Below are positions 17,979-30,055 of a stretch of 64,000 nucleotides of DNA, piece after piece. The stretch comes from Arenimonas oryziterrae DSM 21050 = YC6267 (GTDB lineage Bacteria; Pseudomonadota; Gammaproteobacteria; Xanthomonadales; Xanthomonadaceae), in contig NZ_ATVD01000001.1 of NCBI RefSeq assembly GCF_000420545.1, positions 248,001 to 312,000 on the forward strand, read 5' to 3'. The position numbers were made by a program, and so were the translations under genes. The first letter of the stretch is position 1; every line of letters starts with the position of its first letter. Under the pieces are notes generated by a model. The model did no database searches and was not told the DNA's origin. It saw only the letters and a list, made by a program, of their open reading frames with translations.

Positions 17979-20099
17979 TTCCCAGGCGCGATGGATGCGC
18001 GGATTGCGTTCGAAGTCCGGATCCAGGGTCTTCGGACTGATCTCGCGGATGGTCGCGAATTCCGACACCGCCGCTTCGTCCAGACGGAAGCGGCGGTAGT
18101 TGTTCGAGAACAGCAGCAGCCCATTCGGCGCGAGCCGGTCGACACAGGCACGCAATAAACGGACGTGGTCGCGCTGGGTGTCGAAATCCTCGGCGCGCGC
18201 GGAGTTGGAGAACGTCGGCGGATCGCAGAAGATCAGGTCGTAGGTGCCGCGATCGGCCTCCAGCCATTTCATCGCATCAGCCTGCACCAGACGGTGCTTT
18301 GGCCCGGATACGCCATTGAGCGCAAGGTTTTGCGCCGCCCAATCCAGATAGGTCGCCGACAGATCCACGCTGGTGGTCTGGATCGCGCCGCCGACAGCCG
18401 CCTGCACGCTGGCGACGCCGGTGTAACTGAACAGGTTCAGGAAACGCCCGCCCTGCGCCTCGTCCGCGATGCGCAGTCGGATCGGCCGGTGGTCGAGGAA
18501 CAGGCCGGTATCGAGATAGTCGAACAGGTTCACGCGTAATTTCGCGGCGCCCTCGCGCACGACGAAAAACTGCCCGGCCTGATCCATGCGTCCGTACTTG
18601 CTGCCGCCCTTGCCGCGCGCGCGCGTCTTGGTCGCGACCTGCTCGCGCGGAAGCGGGAACACCTCGCGCAAGGCCGCCAGCAATTCGCCGAAGCGACGCT
18701 TGGTATCGGCTTCGGGAATCGTCGCGGGCGCTTCGTATTCCTGCACGTGCAGGAACTGCCGGCGCTCGCCCTCGTCTTCCTGATAGATGTCGACGGCGGC
18801 GGAGTATTCCGGCAGATCCGCATCGTAGACGCGATAGCAGCCGATCTGCTGACGCTCGCGCCAGGACTTGAATTTCTTCAGGTTCTTGCGAAGTCGGTTC
18901 GCGACCATCTGCGCGCCTTCGGTGAGCGGTGCCGGCGCGCGCGCTTCGCGCACGGGCGGCAAGATCGGATCGCAAAGGATCAGCGCGCATTCGAGCGCAC
19001 CGTTGAACAGGGCGTATTTCTTGGTGGCGCGCAGACCGGTCGCGAAAGCCAATTCGGCGTCGCCGCACAACAGGCTGGCGCGCCATTCCGGCACGGCCTT
19101 GCGCAGGGCGTCGCCGAGCTCGCGATACAGGGCCTCGTCGGCGGCCAAGCGCTGGTTGTAGGGCGGATTGCAGACCACCAGACCCCGCGCAGCACCCGGC
19201 GCCTGCAAGGCGGCAATCGCCTTGCGATCGAAACGGATGAGCTCGGCGAGGCCGGCGCGATCGGCATTCGCCATCGCGGCATGCAAGGCCGTCGGATCGT
19301 TGTCGGCACCGAAGAACACCGGCTTGAGAGCGGCGCGTCCGGCGTCGGCACGTTGTCGGGCGTCGGCGACCAGCGTCTGCCAGAGCGCGACATCGAAACC
19401 GAGCCAGCGACTCGGCCGCACGCCGCGCCAGCGCAGCAGACCCGGCGCCTCGTCGGCAGCCATGAGCGCGCCTTCGATCAACAGCGTACCGCTACCGCAC
19501 ATCGGATCGAGCAAGGCGCCGCCTTCGGCATGGATCTTCGGCCAGCCGCCGCGAATCAGCATCGCCGCCGCCAGGTTCTCCTTCAGCGGCGCATCGCCCT
19601 GCGATTGCCGCCAGCCGCGCCGGTGCAGCGGTCCGCCGCCCAGGTCGATCGACACCAGGGCGCGGCCCTTGCGTACGACTACGTTGATGCGCAGATCCGG
19701 GTCGTCGACATCGACCGAGGGCCGCGTGCCGTGTTCGGCGCGGATGCGATCGACGATCGCATCCTTGCTGCGTTGCGCGGCGTAGCGTTCGTGCGTGATC
19801 GCAGGACCGGAGACATGCGCGTCGACGGCGAGCGTGCCTTCGGCGGCGACATGCGCGGACCAGTCGATCGCGTGCACGCCCTGGTACAGGTCCTGCTCGT
19901 TCTCGCAGGGGAAATCCGCGAGCGGCCACAACACGCGACTGGCCAGGCGCGAATGCAGGATCGCGCGATAGGCCAGCGCGGGCTCGGCTTCGACATTCAC
20001 GCCCGCCGTGGCGGCCGTGGCTTTTCCCGCGCCGAGCGCGAGCAGTTCGTCGGCCAGAAGGTATTCCAGACTTTTCGCGCAGGCGACGAAGAATTTCAT
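17961..20099 (-). CDS. rlmKL: Bifunctional 23S rRNA methyltransferase RlmKL
   Basis: This 712-residue fusion methylates 23S rRNA at G2445 (N2, RlmL part) and G2069 (N7, RlmK part) during ribosome assembly. The N-terminal THUMP domain (about 45-155) precedes the RlmL methyltransferase, with [16 protein letters not shown] near 200 and the catalytic [10 protein letters not shown] near 310. The RlmK half has [17 protein letters not shown] near 560 and [13 protein letters not shown] near 635. The length matches E. coli RlmKL (702). Its start codon overlaps the stop of the hydrolase gene upstream (ATGA), so it is the last gene of the MOSC-hydrolase-rlmKL unit. Confidence 0.97.
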
Positions 20100-20620
20100 G
20101 CGAGCGTCTTCAGCAGGCGACCGAATTCTTCGGCGCAGAACTCCACATGCGCGGCGAGACGGTGGCTGTCGTTGACGAAGACCGTCGTATCGCGGCGCTC
20201 TGCAGCCCAGCGCGCGACTTCCATCGCGGGAATCAGTTCGTCGTCCCAGCCATGCACGATGCGTGTCGGCACGCGGGCGGCCTCGAGACGGATGTCGAAG
20301 CCTTCCAACTGCGTGGGCGGCGCCATGAGGAACAGACCGATCACCGGCAGCACCAGCGACACGCGCGCGGACACGAAGGCACCCATGCTCGATCCCGCGA
20401 GCACCAACGGCCCGCGCACCTGGCTGGCGAGATCGTGCAGGCGGGCGATACGCCCATGCACGTCACCCAGGCGGCTACGCGAAAAATCGTTATCCCACAC
20501 GCGGTAGTCCGGCCGCTCCTGCGACCAGCCCAGCGATTCCGCGATTTTCGACAAGGCTGTGGCCTTGGTGGCATCGGGACTGCTCTCCAGCCCGTGCGAA
20601 ATGATGACGTGACCCTTCAA
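20096..20620 (-). CDS. Small alpha/beta hydrolase with TTG start
   Basis: This is a 174-residue hydrolase of the YqiA/YcfP-like small esterase type. It begins at TTG, 1 base into the upstream MOSC stop region, and a GGAGAG ribosome site sits about 8 bases ahead; no ATG or GTG fits the conserved N terminus [16 protein letters not shown]. The nucleophile elbow is [12 protein letters not shown] near residues 71-82. Asp is in [10 protein letters not shown] and the catalytic His in [10 protein letters not shown]. The substrate is unknown. Its stop overlaps the rlmKL start, indicating coupled translation. Confidence 0.82.
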
Positions 20621-21135
20621 ACCCGACTCTCCGTAGTCTCGGCGAGGGCGACGACGGCGTCGCCAATGCGCAGGCGTCCGCCTTCGAGGATGCGTGCACA
20701 CAAACCACCGTGGTTGCGCATCGCGTTGTAGCCGCCCGGGCCCAGGGCCGCTTCCATACGCGAACACGGATCGCAGTCTTCGGTGCCTTCGAGCACGACC
20801 TCGCCGATCCGGAACCGCCGCCCCTTGAGCGCGACCAGCGGCAACCCGGATACCACCAGATTGCGGCGCAGCCAGGCGGGATTCACCGACGCATGACCGG
20901 CCAAGGCCGCGATCACGGGCAGATGCTCGGCCTGGATCAGGGTGATGCCGCGCTTGCCGCTGCCGCTGGCGTAGCGATCGCCGACCAGGCCAACGCCGGT
21001 CCGGGCCTCGGCCTCGTCGACCTCGTGCATGAGCACGTCGCGTTTGGGTCGCAAGCCGATCCATTCCACGCGGCCGGCGCGCGGCAAGGTGGCCATCAGC
21101 TGGCCGAGTGCGGAGTCGGCGGGAGGCAGGGTCAT
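20617..21135 (-). CDS. MOSC-domain sulfurase-like protein
   Basis: This is a 172-residue stand-alone MOSC domain. The conserved C-terminal part is clear: EGTEDCDPCSRMEAALGPGG holds the family's conserved cysteine region and MRNHGGLCARILEGGRLRIGD closes the fold. MOSC domains bind sulfur or molybdenum cofactor, as in molybdenum cofactor sulfurase and in the mARC and YiiM enzymes that reduce N-hydroxylated compounds. This one lacks the partner domains, so its reaction is open. It is the first gene of the operon with the hydrolase and rlmKL. Confidence 0.9.
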   Translation of the reverse strand: MTLPPADSALGQLMATLPRAGRVEWIGLRPKRDVLMHEVDEAEARTGVGLVGDRYASGSGKRGITLIQAEHLPVIAALAGHASVNPAWLRRNLVVSGLPLVALKGRRFRIGEVVLEGTEDCDPCSRMEAALGPGGYNAMRNHGGLCARILEGGRLRIGDAVVALAETTESRV

Positions 21136-21172
21136 GACGGGCTCCGGAAGGCGCGAATGTTAGCATGCGGCC

Positions 21173-21748
21173 ATGAGCCCCGATCTTCCGCCCGACCTGC
21201 CCCTGCACTCCTGGCCGCTGCCCTACGAGGAGCGCCTGGACGAGCGTCCGCCGACGCAGATCGACCTGGTGGTGATCCACTGCACCGAACTGCCGGACAT
21301 GGCAATGGCGCGCGAGTACGGCGAGCGCCAGCTGTACGACGCCGGCACCGGCAACAGCGGTCATTTCTACATCGATCGCGACGGCACCGTGCACGTGTTC
21401 GTGTCGCCGACGCGCGTGGCCAACCACACCCGCGGCTACAACCCGCGCTCGATCGGCATCGAGCTGGTCAATACCGGCCGCTATCCCGACTGGTACGACT
21501 CGCGCCGGCAGACGATGGCCGAGCCCTATACCGAAGCGCAGATCCGCTCGCTGTCGACCCTGTTGCTGACGCTCAAGCGCGACCTGCCGCAACTGGCCCT
21601 GATCGCCGGTCACGAGGACCTCGATACCGCCAAGGTCAACGCCAGCGACGATCCGAACCAGCAGGTCTGGCGCAAGCGCGATCCGGGTCCGCAGTTCCCG
21701 TGGCCGCGGGTACTCGAAGAAAGCGGCCTGCAACGCCTCAAGCCCTGA
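21173..21748 (+). CDS. N-acetylmuramoyl-L-alanine amidase (amidase_2, AmpD-like)
   Basis: This 191-residue zinc amidase cuts the amide bond between muramic acid and the peptide stem. Zinc ligands are visible as the His in LVVIHCTEL near residue 36 and in LIAGHEDLDTAK near 145, with the third ligand region around KRDPGPQFPW. The middle has SGHFYIDRDGTVHVFV and SIGIELVNTGRYPDW. There is no signal peptide, so a cytoplasmic AmpD-type role in cell-wall recycling is plausible. It diverges from the MOSC gene. Confidence 0.9.
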   Translation: MSPDLPPDLPLHSWPLPYEERLDERPPTQIDLVVIHCTELPDMAMAREYGERQLYDAGTGNSGHFYIDRDGTVHVFVSPTRVANHTRGYNPRSIGIELVNTGRYPDWYDSRRQTMAEPYTEAQIRSLSTLLLTLKRDLPQLALIAGHEDLDTAKVNASDDPNQQVWRKRDPGPQFPWPRVLEESGLQRLKP

Positions 21749-21788
21749 AAACAGATGCCGGCGAAGCCGGCAACGGGGCGGGGCTCGG

Positions 21789-21794
21789 TATAAT
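21789..21794 (+). promoter_or_regulatory. Candidate -10 box upstream of tesB
   Basis: A perfect TATAAT lies 23 bases before the tesB ATG. No convincing -35 hexamer sits 16-18 bases upstream, where the sequence is GC-rich. The placement would give a leader of roughly 15 bases. Evidence is the motif alone. Confidence 0.4.
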
Positions 21795-21816
21795 CGCGGC
21801 CTGTCCCGGAGTGCCC

Positions 21817-22698
21817 ATGACCCAGCCCGTCGTTTCCGAACTCGTCACCCTGCTCACGCTCGAGCGACTTGAGGACAACCTGTTCCGCGGCCAGAGTCGC
21901 GACATCGGTACCAAATACGTGTTCGGCGGCCAGGTGCTCGGACAGGCCCTGTCGGCCGCGCAACAAACCGTCGACGACGAGCGCAGCGTGCATTCGGTGC
22001 ACGCGTATTTCCTGCGCGCCGGCGACATCACCGCGCCAATCATCTTCGATGTCGATCGTGCGCGCGACGGCCACAGTTTTTCGGTACGCCGCGTCACGGC
22101 GATCCAGCACGGCCAGCCGATCCTGGTGTTCGCGTCCTCGTTCCAGAAATCCGAACCGGGCGTCGAGCATCAGTTCCACATGCCGGAAGTGCCCAAGCCC
22201 GAAGACGTCGAACCGACGGTCGCGCCCTCGGCCGAAATCATGGAAAAACTGCCGGCGAAAATGCAGCGCTGGCTTTCGCGCATGGGGCCGTTCGAAATGC
22301 GCCCGATCTATCCGCGCGACGAGGTCAAACCGCCCAAGCGTCCGCCCTATCAGCAGGTATGGCTGCGTCTGACCGACAAGGTCGGCGACTCGCCCGACCT
22401 GCATCGCGCCCTGCTCGCCTACGCGTCCGATTTCTATCTGCTGGGCACGACGACCTTCCCGCACGGCATCAGCTACTACCAGCCGAACGTTCAGATGGCC
22501 TCGCTCGATCACGCGATGTGGTTCCACCGGCCGTTCCGCGTCGACGACTGGCTGCTGTACTCGCTCGACAGCCCGACCGCCGGCAATGCGCGCGGCCTGG
22601 CGCGCGGCCAGATCTTCACGCGCGACGGCGTGCTTGTCGCATCGGTCGCGCAGGAAGGCCTGATCCGCGTCCTGCCCGAGACGCCGGAGGCGGTGTAA
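21817..22698 (+). CDS. tesB: Acyl-CoA thioesterase II
   Basis: This is a 293-residue double-hotdog thioesterase that hydrolyses medium- and long-chain acyl-CoA. Length and landmarks match TesB (E. coli 286). The N-terminal hotdog has YVFGGQVLGQALSAAQ near residues 28-44 and DGHSFSVRRVTAIQ near 87-100. The C-terminal half has ASLDHAMWFHRPFRVDDW, which contains the conserved Asp of the Asp-Thr-Gln site, and ends with the FTRDGVLVASVAQEGLIR strand. Its TAA overlaps the ATG of the next gene (TAATG). Confidence 0.95.
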   Translation: MTQPVVSELVTLLTLERLEDNLFRGQSRDIGTKYVFGGQVLGQALSAAQQTVDDERSVHSVHAYFLRAGDITAPIIFDVDRARDGHSFSVRRVTAIQHGQPILVFASSFQKSEPGVEHQFHMPEVPKPEDVEPTVAPSAEIMEKLPAKMQRWLSRMGPFEMRPIYPRDEVKPPKRPPYQQVWLRLTDKVGDSPDLHRALLAYASDFYLLGTTTFPHGISYYQPNVQMASLDHAMWFHRPFRVDDWLLYSLDSPTAGNARGLARGQIFTRDGVLVASVAQEGLIRVLPETPEAV

Positions 22699-23102
22699 TG
22701 CGCCAGATGTTCACCTCGGCGCGTTTCGAGAACGTGCAACGGGTCGCCGACATGCTCAGCGAAGCGGGCATCGAGAACCGCATCATGGGTGGCCCCGGCT
22801 ACAAGGGGTACAGCCGCCGCCAGTTCAGCTACGCCGACAAGAAGGCGCAGGCGCAGGAAACACAGGCCTCGGTCTGGGTCATCAAGTCCGACGACTACAA
22901 GCAGGCGCGCGAGCTGATGCAGGACCTGGGCCTGCTCGACAAGACCGATGTTCCGGCCAGCTATGTGCCCGCGCCGATGCAATTCGCCGACAAACCGGGC
23001 GCCGATCCGGCCAAGCGTCTGATGCGGATCAAGGTGACGATGCTGTTCGCGATGGTCGTCATCGTCGGCGGCATGATGGCGCGGGCGTACCTGGCCCGCT
23101 GA
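22698..23102 (+). CDS. DUF2007-like protein with C-terminal membrane anchor
   Basis: This 134-residue protein begins with MFTSARFENVQRVADMLSEAGIENRIMGG, the pattern of the DUF2007 (putative signal-transducing protein) domain. The domain runs to about residue 85, with SVWVIKSDDYKQARELMQDL. A single membrane helix ends the chain (about 114-130, VTMLFAMVVIVGGMMARAYL), so the domain probably faces the cytoplasm. DUF2007 has a ferredoxin-like fold; no biochemical role is established. It is coupled to tesB by a one-base start/stop overlap. Confidence 0.82.
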   Translation: MRQMFTSARFENVQRVADMLSEAGIENRIMGGPGYKGYSRRQFSYADKKAQAQETQASVWVIKSDDYKQARELMQDLGLLDKTDVPASYVPAPMQFADKPGADPAKRLMRIKVTMLFAMVVIVGGMMARAYLAR

Positions 23103-23172
23103 CCGGTCACATTCGCCGCACCGGGTCGTCTTGATTTGTGCATCAAGCAACGATGCTCAACTGGAGCCCGTC

Positions 23173-23388
23173 ATGACCCGCATTACCTTCCATCGCCGTG
23201 CTGCGCTCGCCCTGGCCCTGGTCTGCGGATTGCTTGGCCTCGCCATCGCCGCGGCGGCAGCCATGAGTCAGGCCTCGCCGGTGGCGATCGGCCAGAGCTT
23301 CGGGCTCCTCGGCGCGATCGCCGGCCTGACCGCCGCCACGCTCGGCATTGCCTGGAACCATGTCTCGCGGCAGTCTGTCGCCCCATGA
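23173..23388 (+). CDS. Small two-helix membrane protein paired with a sigma factor
   Basis: This 71-residue protein is almost entirely two hydrophobic helices (about 10-32 and 38-60). I start it at the ATG of MTRITFHRRAALAL, which has GGAG about 8 bases upstream. Its TGA overlaps the start of the sigma-factor gene (ATGA), so the two are translated together. No known family is recognised. By position it could regulate or dock the membrane part of the sigma factor, but it lacks a zinc-binding anti-sigma (ZAS) motif. Confidence 0.65.
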   Translation: MTRITFHRRAALALALVCGLLGLAIAAAAAMSQASPVAIGQSFGLLGAIAGLTAATLGIAWNHVSRQSVAP

Positions 23389-24524
23389 GCGCCGACGTCC
23401 TCGATTCGATCATCCAGACCCATCTGCCCGCAGCGTCGCGCGGCGACCACGTCGCCTACGGACGCATCGTCAGCAGTTGCCAGGGCATGGTGACCTCGAT
23501 CGCGCTGTCGATCGTGCGCGACGTGCCCGCCAGCGAAGACATCGCCCAGGACGCCTTCATCAACGCCTGGCAGAACCTGCGCAAACTCGGCAATCCGTCC
23601 AGCTTCCTGCCCTGGCTGCGCCAGATCACCCGCAACCTGGCGCGCGACCATCTGCGCGCACAGGTTTATCGCGCCAATCCGGCCGGCGACATCGAAGCGG
23701 TCATCGCGGCGGTCGCCGACCCCGGACTGGATCCGGAAGAATCGCTGGCCGAATCGCAGGAGGCGATCATCGCCGCGGAAGTCATCGATGCGCTGCCTGA
23801 AGAATCGCGCGAAGTGCTGTTGCTGTACTACCGCGAAGGCCAGAGTTCGCGTCAGGTCGCGGCCTTGCTGGGCATGCAGGACGCCGCCGTGCGCAAACGC
23901 CTGTCGCGTGCGCGCACCAGCATTCGCGAAGAACTGCTGCAGCGCCTGGGCGAGTTCGCGCGCGCGAGCGCGCCGGGGACCGCCTTCACGGCGGTCGTGT
24001 TGAGCACCTTGACGCTGGCGAGCCCACCGGCCGCCGCCGCCGCGCTGACCGTGACCGGCGGTGCGCTCGCCGGCAAGGGCCTGCTGAAAGTGCTGATCGG
24101 CTCGCTGGGCGGCATCGGCCTGGGCCTGGCCGGCGCGCTGGGCGGCGTCTGGTTCGGCATCCGCAAATATCTGAGGAATCCGCTGGACGCGAGCGAGCGC
24201 CGCAGCCTGCTGCGCTACGGCACGAGCATGAGCCTGCTGGTCATCGTGTTCATGGGTGCGTTCGTGGTCATCCACGATGTGCCGGGCTGGATCGCGCCGG
24301 TGGCGGTCACCCTGGTCTATGCCATCGGCATCATGACCATGTCGACCGTCTGGCTGCCGCGCATTCTCGCGCGACGGCGGGCGCTGGAAGCGCGTGCGGA
24401 TCCGGTCAAGGCGGCGGCGGCGCGCCGCAAGGAACGCATCCGCGCGTGGATCGGCTGCGTTGTCGGTCTGTCCTTGGCGACGGGGGCACTGGTGTACGCG
24501 CTGATCGTCACGGGGCGGATGTAA
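23385..24524 (+). CDS. ECF-type sigma factor with C-terminal membrane domain
   Basis: This is a 379-residue sigma-70-family protein, about twice the usual ECF length. Region 2 is near residues 20-95, with SEDIAQDAFINAWQNL and FLPWLRQITRNLARDHLR. Region 4 is near 130-185, with LPEESREVLLLYYREGQSSRQVAALLG and a KRLSRARTSIREELL recognition helix. A Gly/Ala-rich hydrophobic segment (about 200-262) follows. Two further hydrophobic helices (about 285-325) and a last one (about 354-375) come after a basic loop. The sigma domain therefore appears tethered to the membrane by its own chain. A role in envelope stress is inferred; no separate anti-sigma gene is adjacent. Confidence 0.9.
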   Translation: MSADVLDSIIQTHLPAASRGDHVAYGRIVSSCQGMVTSIALSIVRDVPASEDIAQDAFINAWQNLRKLGNPSSFLPWLRQITRNLARDHLRAQVYRANPAGDIEAVIAAVADPGLDPEESLAESQEAIIAAEVIDALPEESREVLLLYYREGQSSRQVAALLGMQDAAVRKRLSRARTSIREELLQRLGEFARASAPGTAFTAVVLSTLTLASPPAAAAALTVTGGALAGKGLLKVLIGSLGGIGLGLAGALGGVWFGIRKYLRNPLDASERRSLLRYGTSMSLLVIVFMGAFVVIHDVPGWIAPVAVTLVYAIGIMTMSTVWLPRILARRRALEARADPVKAAAARRKERIRAWIGCVVGLSLATGALVYALIVTGRM

Positions 24525-24538
24525 GCGCGGATCCGGAC

Positions 24539-24877
24539 TTACTGACTCGGACGGATGTAGTACACCGCACTGCCGGCCAGCCAGCAGTCGCCTTCGCGGC
24601 GTTTGCAAAAGACATCGACGCGTTTGCCGACGTAATTCTCAATCGGCTCGAGCGGTGCGACCTGGCCCCAGGTTTCCCGCGACCAGCCCATGCCGAACAC
24701 GACGCGACGGCCGTCGATCTGCATGTAGCACATGCCGTCGGCAAAACACCCGGTGTCGACCTTCTCGACGACGCCGGAGAATTTTTCCTCGCCGCGCGTC
24801 ATGCCCGCGGGACGATGCGCGCAGGCCGTGGTCAGCGCGAGCAGGGACAGGAACAGGCCGAACTTGTGCATCGCCAT
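24539..24877 (-). CDS. Small lipoprotein, function unknown
   Basis: This 112-residue protein has a lipoprotein signal (lipobox LTTAC, cysteine near residue 19). The mature domain is about 90 residues with five more cysteines (TGCFADGMCYMQ, VFCKRREGDCWL). The start is taken at the ATG that overlaps the pilZ stop (TGATG); an ATG two codons later would also work. There is no recognised family. Residues like VVEKVDTGCFADG suggest a small beta-barrel fold, which is a guess. It ends the long operon that carries pilZ and holB. Confidence 0.77.
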   Translation of the reverse strand: MAMHKFGLFLSLLALTTACAHRPAGMTRGEEKFSGVVEKVDTGCFADGMCYMQIDGRRVVFGMGWSRETWGQVAPLEPIENYVGKRVDVFCKRREGDCWLAGSAVYYIRPSQ

Positions 24878-25233
24878 CACATCGTATGCGTGTGCTTGTC
24901 GGCGTCGAGCGAGCCGGCGAGCAGGGTTTCGATCTTGCCCTTGACGGTTTCGGCCTCGGCCGAATCGGCGAACTGCACGCCGATGCCGGCGGTGCGATTG
25001 CCCTGCGCGCCCGGTGGCGTGACCCAGATGACCTTGCCGGCCACGGGCAGACGCTCCTTGTCTTCGAGCAGGGACAGCAGCAGGAACACTTCGTCGCCGA
25101 GCGAATAGCGTTTCGTCGTGGGGATGAAGATGCCGCCGGCGCGCACGAAGGGCATGTAGGCGCTGTAGAGCTGCGCCTTGTCCTTGATCGCGAGCGAGAG
25201 AATGCCCTGCCTTGCGCCTGCGCCACCGATCAT
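24877..25233 (-). CDS. pilZ: Type IV pilus PilZ protein
   Basis: This is a 118-residue PilZ protein of the original Xanthomonas/Pseudomonas type IV pilus kind. The start MIGGAGARQGILSLAIKDKAQLYSAYMPFV and FIPTTKRYSLGDEVFLLL match that subfamily. It lacks the RxxxR and D/NxSxxG motifs needed to bind cyclic di-GMP, as is known for this PilZ, which acts with PilB and FimX in pilus assembly. Its place between holB and the lipoprotein, downstream of tmk, is the usual context in gammaproteobacteria. Confidence 0.92.
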   Translation of the reverse strand: MIGGAGARQGILSLAIKDKAQLYSAYMPFVRAGGIFIPTTKRYSLGDEVFLLLSLLEDKERLPVAGKVIWVTPPGAQGNRTAGIGVQFADSAEAETVKGKIETLLAGSLDADKHTHTM

Positions 25234-25270
25234 CGTCGTGCTCCTTGGCTCCGGCCGCGTGCCGCCTGCC

Positions 25271-26242
25271 TCATGGGAACATGGTACGCCATTCCCGCAA
25301 CAGCCCGGCCAGGACCAGGTCGTTGCGGATCGGCGCCTTCAATTGCTCGCGCGTCCGGTTGATCGCGTCGAACCACGCGGAGAGCTTCGGGAAATCCGCC
25401 GGGACCGTCAAGCCACCGCGCTCGGCCGGCGCCGCACCGACCCGACGCGATGCGGCATCGAGGGCGAGATCAGCGGCGAATCGCAGGCGCAACTCCCCCT
25501 GTTCGTCGCCCAGCCAGCGCTGGGCCAGTTCGATCGGGCTGAGCTTGCCGGTGCCGACGGCATTGAGTTCGGTGATGACCTCGCGGCGTAACGACAGCCC
25601 GCCCTGCCCCAGCCATTCGGCGGCCAGGCCCGGCTGACCGCGCGCGGCGTCGAGCGCGGAATCGATATCGGCGTCCTTGAAGCCCTGCGTCACGAGCCAG
25701 GCGCGGGCATCGCTGCGCGCTGGAATACGGAACTCCAGACGCTGGCAACGACTGCGGATCGTCGCCGGCAAGCGGCCAGGACGCGAGGTGACGATCAACA
25801 GGAAGCGGTTGGCCGACGGCTCCTCGAGCGTCTTGAGCAGGGCATTGCTGGCGGCGACGTTCATCGCGTCGGCCGGCGCGATGACCGCGACCTGCGCGCC
25901 GCCGAGCTGCGGGGTCAGCGAAAACCACTGCCCCAGGCGGCGGATCTGGTCGACGGTGATCTCCGTGCGCAGCTTGTCGCCCTTTTCGTTGGGTTCGAGC
26001 GTGACGCGCTGGATATCGCCGTTCGTGCCGGCGGCATAGAGCGTGCAACTGCGGCAGCGCCCACAGGCGAGGTTGTCGGTCGTGGGTGCCGAACACAGCA
26101 ACCGTTGCGCGAGCACATCCGCGACCGCGGTCTTGCCCATATGCGCGGGACCGACAAGCAGCAAGGCATGCGCCAGCCGGCCTTCGGTCAAGGCGGCGAG
26201 TGCGTTGTCGAGAACCGAACGCTGCCAGGGCGAGTAGCTCAT
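25271..26242 (-). CDS. holB: DNA polymerase III delta' subunit
   Basis: This 323-residue clamp-loader subunit opens the sliding clamp together with DnaX and delta. The P-loop-derived segment is LLVGPAHMGKTAVAD near residue 30, and the Zn module contains the cysteines in LLCSAPTTDNLACGRCRSC near 50-70. The sensor region ILLKTLEEPSANRFLLIVTSRP (written in part) lies near 140, and it has the SRC motif (TIRSRCQRLEFRI). Delta' proteins are ATPase-inactive, and the P-loop here is degenerate (GPAHMGKT). Start and tmk stop overlap by 4 bases. Confidence 0.96.
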   Translation of the reverse strand: MSYSPWQRSVLDNALAALTEGRLAHALLLVGPAHMGKTAVADVLAQRLLCSAPTTDNLACGRCRSCTLYAAGTNGDIQRVTLEPNEKGDKLRTEITVDQIRRLGQWFSLTPQLGGAQVAVIAPADAMNVAASNALLKTLEEPSANRFLLIVTSRPGRLPATIRSRCQRLEFRIPARSDARAWLVTQGFKDADIDSALDAARGQPGLAAEWLGQGGLSLRREVITELNAVGTGKLSPIELAQRWLGDEQGELRLRFAADLALDAASRRVGAAPAERGGLTVPADFPKLSAWFDAINRTREQLKAPIRNDLVLAGLLREWRTMFP

Positions 26243-26862
26243 TCGCGATCCAACCAGTCGTTGAGCGCAGCGCGCACGGCCGTCACGACGGCATCGGCGG
26301 ACTGACTGGCGTCGATCACGCGAAAACGCGCCGGCTCGGCGGCCGCGCGGGCCAGATAGGTGCCGCGCACGCGTTCGAAGAAATCGCCACGCTCGCGCTC
26401 GATGCGGTCGGGCTCGCCGCCGCGCGAGCGCGCGCGCGCCAGGCCTTCGTCGACGCCGACATCGAGCAGGAAGGTCAGATCGGGCTTGATGCCCGCAGCC
26501 CAGCGTTCAAGCTCGGCGATGCGCCCGGCGTCGATGCCGCGACCGCCGCCCTGATAGGCGAAGCTGGCATCGGTGAAACGATCTGTCACCACCGCCGCAC
26601 CCCGATCAAGTGCCGGCAAGATCACCTCGCGTACCAACTGCGCGCGGGCGGCAAACATCAGCAGCAATTCGGTTTCCGGCGCGAGCGTGCGCGCCGGGTC
26701 GAGCAACAAGGCACGGATCGCCTCGCCCGCCGCCGTGCCGCCCGGTTCGCGCGTGGCCACGACGTCCCGGCCGCGATCCGACAAGGCCTGCACGATCGCG
26801 GCGATGACCGTGGACTTGCCGGCGCCTTCGCCGCCCTCGATAGACAGGAAGGTCCGGCGCAT
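26239..26862 (-). CDS. tmk: Thymidylate kinase
   Basis: This 207-residue enzyme phosphorylates dTMP to dTDP with ATP. The P-loop IEGGEGAGKSTVI is at residues 8-20, the DR(Y/F) motif is TDRFTDASFAYQGGGRG near 93-109, and the LID region with RSRGGEPDRIERE is near 148-160. Size and motifs are standard. The ATG overlaps the mltG stop, and the stop overlaps the holB start. Confidence 0.97.
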   Translation of the reverse strand: MRRTFLSIEGGEGAGKSTVIAAIVQALSDRGRDVVATREPGGTAAGEAIRALLLDPARTLAPETELLLMFAARAQLVREVILPALDRGAAVVTDRFTDASFAYQGGGRGIDAGRIAELERWAAGIKPDLTFLLDVGVDEGLARARSRGGEPDRIERERGDFFERVRGTYLARAAAEPARFRVIDASQSADAVVTAVRAALNDWLDRE

Positions 26863-27884
26863 CAGCGACCCAGCTGGTATTTGCGAACGGCGGCGTTGTG
26901 CTCGGCCAGCGTCGCGGAAAAATAGTGGGCGCCGTTGCCGCGGGCCACGAAATACAGGGCGTCGCCGTCATCGGGCTGCGCGGCGGCGGTCAAGGCCGCT
27001 TTGCCGGGCATCGCGATCGGTGTCGGCGGCAGGCCGTCGCGTGTGTAGGTGTTGTACGGCGTGTCGGTGGTCAGGTCGGTTTTGCGGATATTGCCGGCGT
27101 AGCGACTACCCATGCCGTAGATCACGGTCGGGTCGGTTTGCAGACGCATGCCGGTCTTCATGCGGCGCACGAACACACCGGCGATCTGCGGCCGCTCGCG
27201 GGGCTGCCCGGTTTCCTTCTCCACGATCGATGCCAGCGTCAGAAGTTCCTCGGGCGTGGTGAGCGGCGAATCCTTCTTGCGCGATTCCCAGGCAGCGGCG
27301 AGTGCCTCGTCCATGGCCTTTGCCGCACGATCGAGAATCGCCAGGTCGCTGGTGCCGCGCGTGTAGACATAGGTCTCGGGCAGGAAGCGGCCCTCGGGGA
27401 ACACCCCCTTGCGATCGAGTTTGGCCATGACCTCCTCGTCGCTGAGCGCATCCATCTCGTGCGTGAGCAGCGCGTCCTTGGCCAGGCCTGCGCGCAGATC
27501 GCGCATGCTCCAGCCTTCGATGATCGTGAACTTGCGCTGCAGGACCTCACCGTTTTCCAGGCGCTGCAGCAAGGTGCGCGGCGTCATGCCGGAGGTGATC
27601 AGATAGTCGCCGACCTGCAGGCGCTGGGCGACCTTCATGCTGGTCGCAAGCGTCTTCCATTCCAGATCGGTGCCCTGCGTAACGTTCAGCGCGCGGATCT
27701 TGTCCAGCACGCGATTGAATCCGTCGCCGCGCTCGATCACCAGCACGCGTTCGGCATCGTCCAGCACCATCGGCCGGTCGGCGAATTCCTGCGTACGCAA
27801 CCAGAACAGTCCGGCAAAAGCGACTGCGGCCACGAACAGGACCGAGAACAGCAATTTGATTCGTCCGATGCGCTTGCGGGGCAC
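26862..27884 (-). CDS. mltG: Endolytic murein transglycosylase MltG
   Basis: This is a 340-residue inner-membrane protein that cuts nascent glycan strands and so ends their elongation. One N-terminal membrane helix (about 10-27, LLFSVLFVAAVAFAGLFWL) anchors it, followed by a LysM-like part and the YceG catalytic domain. The catalytic glutamate is in LASIVEKETGQPRERP near residue 220. The tail has YNTYTRDGLPPTPIAMPG and ADGDALYFVARG-like sequence. It starts 3 bases after pabC, in the order pabC-mltG-tmk-holB also seen in E. coli. Confidence 0.96.
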   Translation of the reverse strand: MPRKRIGRIKLLFSVLFVAAVAFAGLFWLRTQEFADRPMVLDDAERVLVIERGDGFNRVLDKIRALNVTQGTDLEWKTLATSMKVAQRLQVGDYLITSGMTPRTLLQRLENGEVLQRKFTIIEGWSMRDLRAGLAKDALLTHEMDALSDEEVMAKLDRKGVFPEGRFLPETYVYTRGTSDLAILDRAAKAMDEALAAAWESRKKDSPLTTPEELLTLASIVEKETGQPRERPQIAGVFVRRMKTGMRLQTDPTVIYGMGSRYAGNIRKTDLTTDTPYNTYTRDGLPPTPIAMPGKAALTAAAQPDDGDALYFVARGNGAHYFSATLAEHNAAVRKYQLGR

Positions 27885-27887
27885 GTG

Positions 27888-28703
27888 CTACTCCTGGAAA
27901 GCAAAAGCCGGCTGCGCGGCGGCCAGGCGGCGGCGCAGGTCGGTGGTCACCGGATCGACGGGCCAATGCCGCGCCCCGAGCCGAGCCACGGGCAGGATAC
28001 CGCGCACGGCATTGCAGAGAAAAACCGCATCGGCGCTTTCCACGGTTTCCCGGCCCATGACCGTGACTTCCATACGGTCCTCGTGCGCGAGCAACCAGTC
28101 GCGGGCGATGCCGGCGACGCCGGCCAAAGCCAGATCCGGCGTGCGCCAGATGCCGTCGATACGCGCGAACACATTGGCCGCCGTGGCGCAGACCACCCGT
28201 CCGGCGGTGTCGCACAGCAGCCCCTCGAAAATATCCGGATCCGACCACTCGGACCGTGCCAGCACATTTTCGAGGCGATTGAGATGCTTGATGCCCGCCA
28301 GTGCCGGCTGCACTGCCATCGGCGTGTCGCACCAGCGCAGCGCGATGTGCGCAGGCGCGGGCGGCGGTAACGGATGCAGGGACAGCACGCAGGTCGGTCG
28401 CGGATCGGCGGGCGGCGCATACCCTCGCCCGCCGCTGCCGCGGGTGAGCACGAGCTTGAGCACGGCGCGATCCTGCCCGGCGCAAAGCGACCGCGCCTCC
28501 GCCAGGAGCGGCGCTTCTTCCGGCAGAGGAATGCCGAGTCGCTGCGCGCCATAGGCCAAACGCCGCCAATGCTCGGGCCACCACACCGGCTCGCCGGCAT
28601 GCACAAGGATCGTTTCGAACAGGCCGTCGCCATAGTTCAGGCCACGATCATCGGCGGCGATCGCGTCCACGCGCTCGTGACCACGGAAAATACGCACGCT
28701 CAT
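27888..28703 (-). CDS. pabC: Aminodeoxychorismate lyase
   Basis: This 271-residue PLP enzyme converts 4-amino-4-deoxychorismate to p-aminobenzoate and pyruvate for folate synthesis. RGLNYGDGLFETI is near residue 20, the PLP lysine is in LAGIKHLNRLENV near 145, and the cofactor-phosphate region NVFARIDGIWRTPDL follows. The ATG at 28703 overlaps the pabB stop by 4 bases. The longer open frame upstream runs into pabB sequence and is not used. Confidence 0.95.
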   Translation of the reverse strand: MSVRIFRGHERVDAIAADDRGLNYGDGLFETILVHAGEPVWWPEHWRRLAYGAQRLGIPLPEEAPLLAEARSLCAGQDRAVLKLVLTRGSGGRGYAPPADPRPTCVLSLHPLPPPAPAHIALRWCDTPMAVQPALAGIKHLNRLENVLARSEWSDPDIFEGLLCDTAGRVVCATAANVFARIDGIWRTPDLALAGVAGIARDWLLAHEDRMEVTVMGRETVESADAVFLCNAVRGILPVARLGARHWPVDPVTTDLRRRLAAAQPAFAFQE

Positions 28704-30055
28704 TCGCCGACTCCCAGCGCGCGCAACAGCCCGCGGGCCTTCGCACGCGTTTCCAGCAATTCCGATTCCGCCACCGAATCCACGACCAGGCCCGCGCCGG
28801 CACGCAGTTGCAGATGCACGCCCGACAACCAGGCGCTGCGGATGAGGATGTTCAGGTCCAGGTCGCCATCGCGATTGAGATAGCCCAGCGCACCGGTGTA
28901 GGGGCCGCGGCCTTCGTCCTCGAGCTCGGCAATGATCTGCATGCAACGCACTTTCGGACAGCCGGTGATCGTGCCGCCCGGGAACACCGCGCGAATCACC
29001 TCGCCGGGCGTGACCTCGTCGCGCAGATCGCCGCTGACGTTGGACACGATGTGGTGGACATGCGTGTAGCTCTCGACGGTCATGAGCTCGTCGACATGCA
29101 CGCTGCCTGCCGTGCAGACGCGACCGAGATCGTTGCGTTCGAGATCGATCAGCATCACGTGTTCGGCACGCTCCTTGGGATGGCCGACCAGTTCGCGGAT
29201 GCGCGCCTGGTCGTCGTCGCCGGGAAAACGCGGTCGGGTGCCGGCGATCGGGCGCGTCTGCGCGACGCGGCCGCGTACCGACACCAGGCGCTCGGGCGAG
29301 GAACTCGCCAACGCCCAGTCGTCGAAAGAGAGCAAGCCGGCGAACGGCGCGGGATTGGCTTCGCGCAGTCTCGCGTACCAGGCGGCGGCTTCCGGCGCTT
29401 CGGCGAACTCCGCGCGCCAGGCACGGGAAAGATTGACCTGGAAAACATCGCCGGCGCGCAGGTACGCGTGCACGCGCGCGACGCCATCGAGGAAGGCGCT
29501 GTCGGCATCCTCGCGAATGCGGACCGGCGGCTGCCAGGGCGCCATCGGCGGCAATTGTCGGGCGGCGGCCATATCCTCGAGCAAATCATCGAGCAGAGAT
29601 TCGAAGCCCGTTTCCGCGACCGCGAAACACTCGCCATTGGTGCGATCGCGCAACAGCGCGCCGGGGCATCGCAGGGCCAGAGCGACCGGCAAAGGTCCGG
29701 GCGCGACCGGCAGGCGCAACACCGGCTCGACCTGCGCGGCCAGCTCGTAGGAAAGATAGAGCGCCCAGCCGCCGCGGAACGGCGCGGAGCCGTCGCCGTG
29801 CGCAATGCGCTGACCACGCCAATCGGCATCGAGCGCATCGAGGAAATCCCCCGCCACGGCGCTGCCGTCCAGACGACGCACCTGGGCGTCGCCGTCCAGG
29901 CGCAGTCCCTCGCCGTTGGCGATGAGCAACAGATCCCAGCGCGACAACGCGTTGCCGCCCGCGACGCTTTCCAGCAGCAAGGGGTAACGCTCGCGGCGTG
30001 CGCGATGCAGGGAGAGAAAGTCGACCTGCGCGGGCAGCGCGCGCCGGATCATCAT
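28700..30055 (-). CDS. pabB: Aminodeoxychorismate synthase component I
   Basis: This 451-residue enzyme aminates chorismate with the help of PabA (not in this window). The chorismate-binding domain is intact: FQVNLSRAWRAEF, PIAGTRPRF, ERAEHVMLIDLERNDLGRV, VFPGGTITGCPKVR and the ending GAGLVVDSVAESELLETRAKA. I start at MMIRRALPAQ, after the fabF stop. PabB enzymes carry Lys in PIKGT where anthranilate synthases use Ala; here the motif is PIAGT, which is unusual for PabB and leaves some doubt between the two. The adjacent pabC supports PabB. Confidence 0.9.
   Translation of the reverse strand: MMIRRALPAQVDFLSLHRARRERYPLLLESVAGGNALSRWDLLLIANGEGLRLDGDAQVRRLDGSAVAGDFLDALDADWRGQRIAHGDGSAPFRGGWALYLSYELAAQVEPVLRLPVAPGPLPVALALRCPGALLRDRTNGECFAVAETGFESLLDDLLEDMAAARQLPPMAPWQPPVRIREDADSAFLDGVARVHAYLRAGDVFQVNLSRAWRAEFAEAPEAAAWYARLREANPAPFAGLLSFDDWALASSSPERLVSVRGRVAQTRPIAGTRPRFPGDDDQARIRELVGHPKERAEHVMLIDLERNDLGRVCTAGSVHVDELMTVESYTHVHHIVSNVSGDLRDEVTPGEVIRAVFPGGTITGCPKVRCMQIIAELEDEGRGPYTGALGYLNRDGDLDLNILIRSAWLSGVHLQLRAGAGLVVDSVAESELLETRAKARGLLRALGVGE

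Follow-up and report, generated by a model that had tools for sequence, protein, structure and literature searches.

The question raised by this locus is whether an ECF sigma factor can carry its own membrane tether, and perhaps its own regulator, within one polypeptide. The DNA analyzed (the window) is a stretch of 64,000 nucleotides from Arenimonas oryziterrae, in which a + strand gene at 23385..24524 encodes a 379-residue protein, P0001. The first-pass annotation had placed sigma regions 2 and 4 in residues 20–185 of this protein, followed by about 190 largely hydrophobic residues, and had seen no adjacent ZAS-type anti-sigma gene. These observations were confirmed. Pfam searches located region 2 at residues 29–93 (Sigma70_r2, E 2.5e-14; 23469..23663, +) and region 4 at residues 132–182 (23778..23930, +), where two overlapping models matched, among them Sigma70_r4_2 at residues 132–178 (E 2.2e-12). 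Sigma70_r2, Sigma70_r4_2, and TIGR02937 all scored above their cut-offs, which identifies P0001 as an ECF (group 4 sigma-70) factor. The best Foldseek matches of its structural model, among the best 50 of 204, were ECF sigma factors with AlgU at the top, and by sequence P0001 resembled AlgU/sigma-E more (62.8 bits, against 24.6 bits for SigJ). It is one of 10 ECF-like gene matches in a genome of 3.09 Mb. The 194 residues that follow region 4 (residues 186–379) are mostly hydrophobic and contain five hydrophobic segments, the first of which is weaker. The HxxxCxxC (ZAS) motif was absent from all six frames of positions 21701–26300, and the only cysteines of P0001 are Cys32 and Cys358. No Pfam match to a FecR domain was found in P0001, and none to SnoaL among matches listed up to E 1. 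By reading of the ORFs, the genes downstream of the sigma gene are convergent, a thioesterase-like gene also lies upstream, and no receptor gene was recognized among the ORFs of positions 19000–29000.

The conservation of this architecture was then explored in relatives. A contig scan gave 269 stretches encoding a relative of the sigma factor, and the best 80 of these 269 were analyzed as named loci; this set overlaps with the 27 genomes of the genus that were studied separately, since several records belong to both. Among the 80 are records of Arenimonas, Pseudoxanthomonas, Lysobacter, Luteimonas, Chiayiivirga, Aquimonas, and Stenotrophomonas. The membrane extension, 187–249 residues long, was kept in 78 of the 80, and the fusion is therefore not a chance event. 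The two exceptions were L079, where a contig end cuts the gene, and L049, where an in-frame stop follows residue 185. In L049 (stretch from 3001) the stop separates region 4 precisely from the membrane domain, and the extension can still be read behind it, so that either a free sigma factor or a sequencing error could be represented. Compared with 12 orthologs from the genus (L009–L016 and L018–L021), P0001 was 74–82% identical over residues 20–95, 80–89% over residues 132–185, and 39–47% over residues 221–379.

A match to the sigma factor was present in 60 of 119 family genomes (E 1e-25). In the same 80 loci (best 80 of 269), tblastn suggested more than one sigma copy in 18, and 97 sigma ORFs were clustered. 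Tandem copies of the membrane sigma gene were seen in L036, L040, L054, L060, L097, and others among L029–L108, some with a promoter before each copy and some with a single promoter before the first. Further afield, a profile of the extension (A2) matched 4 of 274 class genomes, including the window's own, and the match in one of the four, G240, is not a sigma factor by reading of its locus (L112). A profile of region 4 and the junction (A3) matched 36 of 200 order genomes (E 1e-14) and 9 of 398 phylum genomes (E 1e-11). Note that the A2 and A3 counts are lower bounds because few candidates were scored per genome (at most 11, 12, and 25 first-look candidates in the class, phylum, and order scans, respectively). 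The full extension was rare outside the order, with L110 as a clear case at 1e-22. Longer relatives of about 520–560 residues occur in other families (L026, L122, L124, and L143); their sigma domain and junction are similar, but the extension is larger and includes repeats rich in G and V. A secreted-looking protein (median 229 residues) recurs in 31 of the 80 named loci (best 80 of 269), mostly encoded on the other strand, 3′ of the sigma gene and convergent with it.

The topology of the extension was studied through its charge distribution. After the first segment, at the junction, four further membrane segments were assigned from charge and an AlphaFold2 model at residues 237–258, 278–296, 304–322, and 354–373 (24093..24503, +), with K/R-rich loops at residues 259–277 and 323–353. 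Over 79 proteins (the 78 named relatives and P0001), these two loops contained on average 5.1 and 8.8 K+R, while the means on the other side were 2.2 (loop 220–236), 0.66 (297–303), and 0.76 (tail). Under the positive-inside rule, the sigma domain and the K/R-rich loops come to lie on one side only if the segment at residues 199–219 also crosses, giving five crossings. The charge pattern thus supports five membrane segments with a cytoplasmic sigma domain and the C terminus outside, and the first-pass proposal that the sigma domain is held at the membrane is in keeping with it. The AlphaFold2 model, built with 17 sequences, showed helices at residues 234–264, 269–296, 303–338, and 340–375 (mean pLDDT 69.9, pTM 0.37); these four later helices were of fair quality and residues 194–243 were unreliable.

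The junction that contains the first membrane segment (residues 195–220; 23967..24044, +) and the adjoining A192 include the positions that vary least in the whole extension, and A192, P197, and F201 were invariant in 79 of 79 aligned proteins. In most members [ST]-A-P-x-x-x-F is followed by a short core of hydrophobic residues and then by a P-rich or A-x-A stretch. Outside the family the F may be I (L121), and the A-x-A pattern was also found in distant members, as TPAQA (L121) and PPAKA (L124). The stretch looks like a signal peptide, and it was scored with a matrix derived from a set of 22 E. coli signal peptides. With this matrix the junctions of 93 proteins had a median score of 7.9; the remaining hydrophobic segments of these proteins, 428 in number and partly overlapping, had a median of 2.1. 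Shuffled junction stretches from the 93 proteins averaged 5.9 against 8.5 observed; the shuffle p value had a median of 0.15, fell below 0.05 in 23% of the proteins, and was 0.385 for P0001. The likeness to a signal peptide is only suggestive, since composition explains part of the score, and after this control the junction was no longer regarded as a demonstrated signal peptide. A segment of this kind directly behind region 4 would agree with the proteolytic release that the first-pass annotation had named as one possibility.

The upstream neighbors of the sigma gene were considered as possible partners. A 71-residue ORF with two hydrophobic stretches (23173..23388, +) shares ATGA with the sigma gene, and a change in this small coupled protein had been put forward by the first-pass annotation as one way of releasing the sigma domain. 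Its GC content by codon position was 0.69/0.59/0.83, and its score per codon was +0.34 bits, the other + frames giving −0.61 and −0.59; the best reverse frame gave +0.11, and the sigma extension itself +0.63. The ORF is coding-like, on evidence that is moderate in a GC-rich genome. No Shine–Dalgarno-like word of four or more bases precedes the start of P0001. Translational coupling is likely, but it is not special to this locus because 49 of the 80 relatives, at their chosen starts, also lack such a word. No homolog of the 71-residue protein was found in the other 26 genomes of the genus, seven of which gave matches at E 0.01–0.046 that were ascribed to chance, and it was absent from the 80 named loci at E 1e-3 (best 80 of 269). 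A match to the extension of L027 (E 2.5e-4), obtained without low-complexity filter or composition correction, was put down to composition. The ORF sits between the promoter and the sigma gene in this genome only; in relatives the sigma gene starts at that place. As it was found neither elsewhere in the genus nor in the named loci, where the sigma factor is conserved, the protein was rejected as a general partner; it is at most a local accessory.

Farther upstream, P0002 (22698..23102, +) is a DUF2007-like protein with a C-terminal hydrophobic helix, the Pfam match being weak (E 0.0099) and below the cut-off. A DUF2007-like gene lies upstream of the sigma gene in 73 of the 80 named loci (best 80 of 269). 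Since such a gene is present in 117 of 119 family genomes and the sigma factor in 60 of 119, the shared position was taken as synteny. With a spread so much wider than that of the sigma factor, the DUF2007-like protein is probably not a dedicated partner, and it appears that gain or loss of the sigma locus took place next to its gene.

A putative autoregulated ECF promoter, GGTCACA-N15-CGTC, was found at 23105..23130 (+), ahead of both the 71-residue ORF and the sigma gene, from its position and its conservation before sigma genes of the family. GTCAC-N16-CGTC was present in 57 of 81 upstream regions, while any such pair reached at most 7–10 in five shuffles. GTCACA-N14..16-CGTC occurred within 250 bp upstream in 63 of the 80 loci (best 80 of 269), a density of 3.15 per kb, while the remaining sequence had 0.018 per kb (19 matches in 1,080,772 strand-bases), and a looser pattern over 400 bp was present in 68 of the 80 loci and in the window. 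The record of Arenimonas daejeonensis KACC 14631 (L030) has both the sigma gene and the promoter. All of the matches in the 80 loci were on the + strand, with none on the minus strand, and in 81 of 82 a family sigma gene starts within 320 bp; the remaining one (L098) lies just behind one sigma copy, in a locus with further matches. The distance from the end of the −10 element to the sigma start was 28–44 bp in 48 of 63 loci (range 9–218). The motif was absent from the stretches scanned for the second genus copies L027 and L028 and for the distant relatives L110, L121, L122, L124, L143, and L148, and in its strict form from the stretches of the longer relatives, L026 included. For ECF41 factors the promoter has been given as TGTCACA-n16-CGTC, with a −35 element said to be ECF41-specific (PMC3426412). 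As an upstream motif the site in the window corresponds to an ECF41 target promoter, having the same core, a spacing within 16 ± 1, and G instead of T as its first base. Judging from the conservation of the motif, the active sigma factor may recognize GTCAC-N16/17-CGTC promoters.

Candidate targets beyond the sigma gene were sought with the strict motif, which gave five matches in the 27 genus genomes. Three stand before family sigma genes (G009, G010, and G019), and a fourth, in G022, precedes a broken and shortened sigma-like gene (L155) with its promoter copy intact, reflecting either gene decay or an assembly artifact. The fifth, in G021, stands before a Yip1 gene. Orthologs of this gene were present in 17 of the 27 genomes, and GTCAC-N14..17-CGTC was found at −109 to −156 in 15 of the 17 Yip1 operons, that of G003 included. 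The background at these loci was 0 matches in 118,450 other strand-bases, shuffles of the upstream regions gave a mean of 0.11 and at most 2 of 17, and in the part of the upstream alignment that was inspected the motif was among the few blocks in common. Closer to the Yip1 start, a CCTA-C-T block is also shared and is perhaps a second promoter. The motif was present in 14 of 14 genomes with both the Yip1 operon and a sigma match, and in 1 of 3 with the operon and no sigma match, that one being G022; among the 14, the sigma gene of G019 has an in-frame stop and that of G023 is cut by a contig end. Co-occurrence of sigma match and operon (both, sigma only, operon only, neither) was 14/1/3/9 in the 27 genomes (Fisher p 0.0008) and 11/1/2/5 in the 19 better genomes (p 0.0095), values that are uncorrected for kinship and overstate the association because the genomes are related and some are incomplete.

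The operon encodes a Yip1 protein, an RND/HlyD-type membrane fusion protein (MFP), an ABC ATPase, and a MacB/FtsX permease. In L181 all four stood in one operon, the composition of a YknWXYZ-type exporter (Yip1 62.6 bits, RND_mfp 172.3, ABC_tran 119.3, MacB_PCD 130.4, FtsX 80.8), with YknW_fam below its own cut-off (48.3 of 110). It appears that in the genus the sigma factor has a conserved YknWXYZ-like exporter as a predicted target. The window's own genome had no Yip1 ortholog at E 1e-20, and the relaxed motif was not enriched there (6 matches against 14 for a reversed control), the six being the sigma factor's own promoter, one within a terminator-like repeat, one before a cysD-like gene (by reading), one before an alpha/beta hydrolase gene, and two that overlap ORFs. 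For these two reasons only its own gene is supported as a target in this genome. At position 1501 of the minus strand of L161, GTCACAT-N-CGTC lies ~ 35 bp before the assumed start of the (TAP-like) hydrolase, whose reading frame is open from within the motif; this gene is a candidate second target.

The fused anti-sigma domain of IutY, the Pseudomonas putida representative of ECF243, is of FecR type, and the promoter of sigma-W in Bacillus subtilis differs from GTCAC-CGTC. The first-pass annotation had called for a comparison with ECF groups carrying C-terminal membrane domains, and in none of those compared was the extension of P0001 accommodated. The ECF41 factors (SigJ, Ecf41Bli, and Ecf41Rsp) resemble it in the promoter core (GTCACA-N15/16-CGTC), a fused C-terminal regulator, the lack of an obvious anti-sigma factor, and a very small regulon that may include their own operon (PMC3426412). 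They differ in that the extension of P0001 is membranous and without a SnoaL-type domain; as P0001 also has no W.PEP corresponding to the WLPEP linker motif, its sequence places it outside ECF41. IutY likewise has a membrane-bound anti-sigma factor fused at its C terminus and is cleaved by Prc and RseP, but it belongs to an iron-starvation cell-surface signaling system (PMC8999054), while P0001 has five membrane segments and was found with neither a fused FecR-type anti-sigma domain nor a cell-surface signaling locus. The same source describes C-terminal membrane-helix extensions and proposed proteolysis for ECF48, ECF52 (SCO4117), and ECF53, which are actinobacterial and differ in having a zinc finger (likely ZAS) and one or two helices (PMC8999054); P0001 has no HxxxCxxC and five segments. 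Sigma-W also acts as an ECF factor before a Yip1-MFP-ATPase-permease exporter, though with the separate anti-sigma factor RsiW. In B. subtilis, yknWXYZ is listed as a core sigma-W operon and under resistance to SdpC (PMC3498285, PMC3210768). A literature search in which subscription journals were thinly covered found no paper on this membrane-fused family.

One interpretation of these data, held with slightly more belief than doubt, is that P0001 is an ECF factor with its own membrane tether and regulator, released by stress, autoregulated, and exporter-inducing in other species of the genus. Residues 1–185 would form the sigma domain and residues ~ 199–373 would cross the membrane five times. 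At rest, the tether would prevent the sigma domain from using RNA polymerase productively. When the membrane or periplasm is disturbed, the domain would be freed or unlocked, the most likely route being cleavage within the first membrane segment or close to it. The active sigma factor would raise expression of its gene and, elsewhere in the genus, of the YknWXYZ-like four-part ABC exporter. By analogy with the Bacillus system, the exporter response would be a defense against membrane-active peptides, and the gene looks like a self-contained alarm for damage to the membrane.

It could be instead that the full-length protein stays in the membrane and is switched in place by a change of shape, without ever being cleaved, a reading that is possible though doubtful. 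The fused ECF41 extension and the membrane-bound activator CadC are models for such switching. Truncations of ECF41 proteins have indicated that the fused domain has both inhibiting and required parts (PMC3426412). The ECF41 promoter core is used here as well, and the later segments and charged loops are partly conserved, beyond what a mere anchor would need. However, a sigma factor that stays tethered would still have to meet RNA polymerase at dispersed promoters, and IutY, the sole fused membrane case called experimentally characterized in a review (PMC8999054), is cleaved. Somewhat less probable is that the first segment acts as an internal signal peptide, with signal peptidase or a site-1 protease cutting outside after A-x-A before an RseP-type protease frees the sigma domain. 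The junction pattern, kept in most members including distant ones, and the high matrix scores would fit this, while the shuffle control and a matrix resting on 22 E. coli signal peptides weaken it. RseA has the same orientation as that proposed for the first membrane segment. It is cut first by DegS and then within the membrane by RseP (PMC8103513).

Two further explanations shift the regulation away from P0001. If the promoter were read by another ECF factor, the sigma gene would be merely one target; ECF41 factors do read this type of promoter (PMC3426412), and the genome has its other ECF-like genes. This is improbable, as in the 80 loci the motif stands almost only before family sigma genes, most tandem copies included, and it is missing in 2 of 3 Yip1 operons of genomes without a sigma match. 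Least probable of all, and very unlikely, is regulation by the 71-residue coupled protein as a small membrane anti-sigma factor or sensor. Its start 3′ of the conserved promoter, the ATGA overlap, and its coding-like character speak for it, against which stand its restriction to this genome and the spacing in 48 of 63 loci, where the sigma start itself takes the place behind the promoter.

Returning to the tethered and stress-released sigma factor, a bolder form of this reading is tentative and rather unlikely as a whole. Here one chain would hold a complete stress pathway of sigma factor, transmembrane sensor, and release site; an internal signal-peptide-like segment would be cut, the sigma factor would induce itself and a four-part exporter directed against membrane-active peptides, and the protein would be the equivalent of sigma-W/RsiW but with no separate anti-sigma factor, with an ECF41-like promoter read by a different lineage.

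The interpretation offered in the first-pass annotation is thus partly supported, and to it are added a predicted charge-based topology, a putative autoregulatory promoter, and a probable exporter target conserved in the genus. An ECF41-type promoter core stands here before a sigma factor that is not ECF41. Other ECF factors with membrane domains fused to them have been described, but a mechanism or a regulon is available for few. The present family, from environmental bacteria, provides a promoter of defined sequence together with a target operon that is conserved, and because of these, whether a tethered sigma factor can sense membrane damage alone becomes a simple reporter question.
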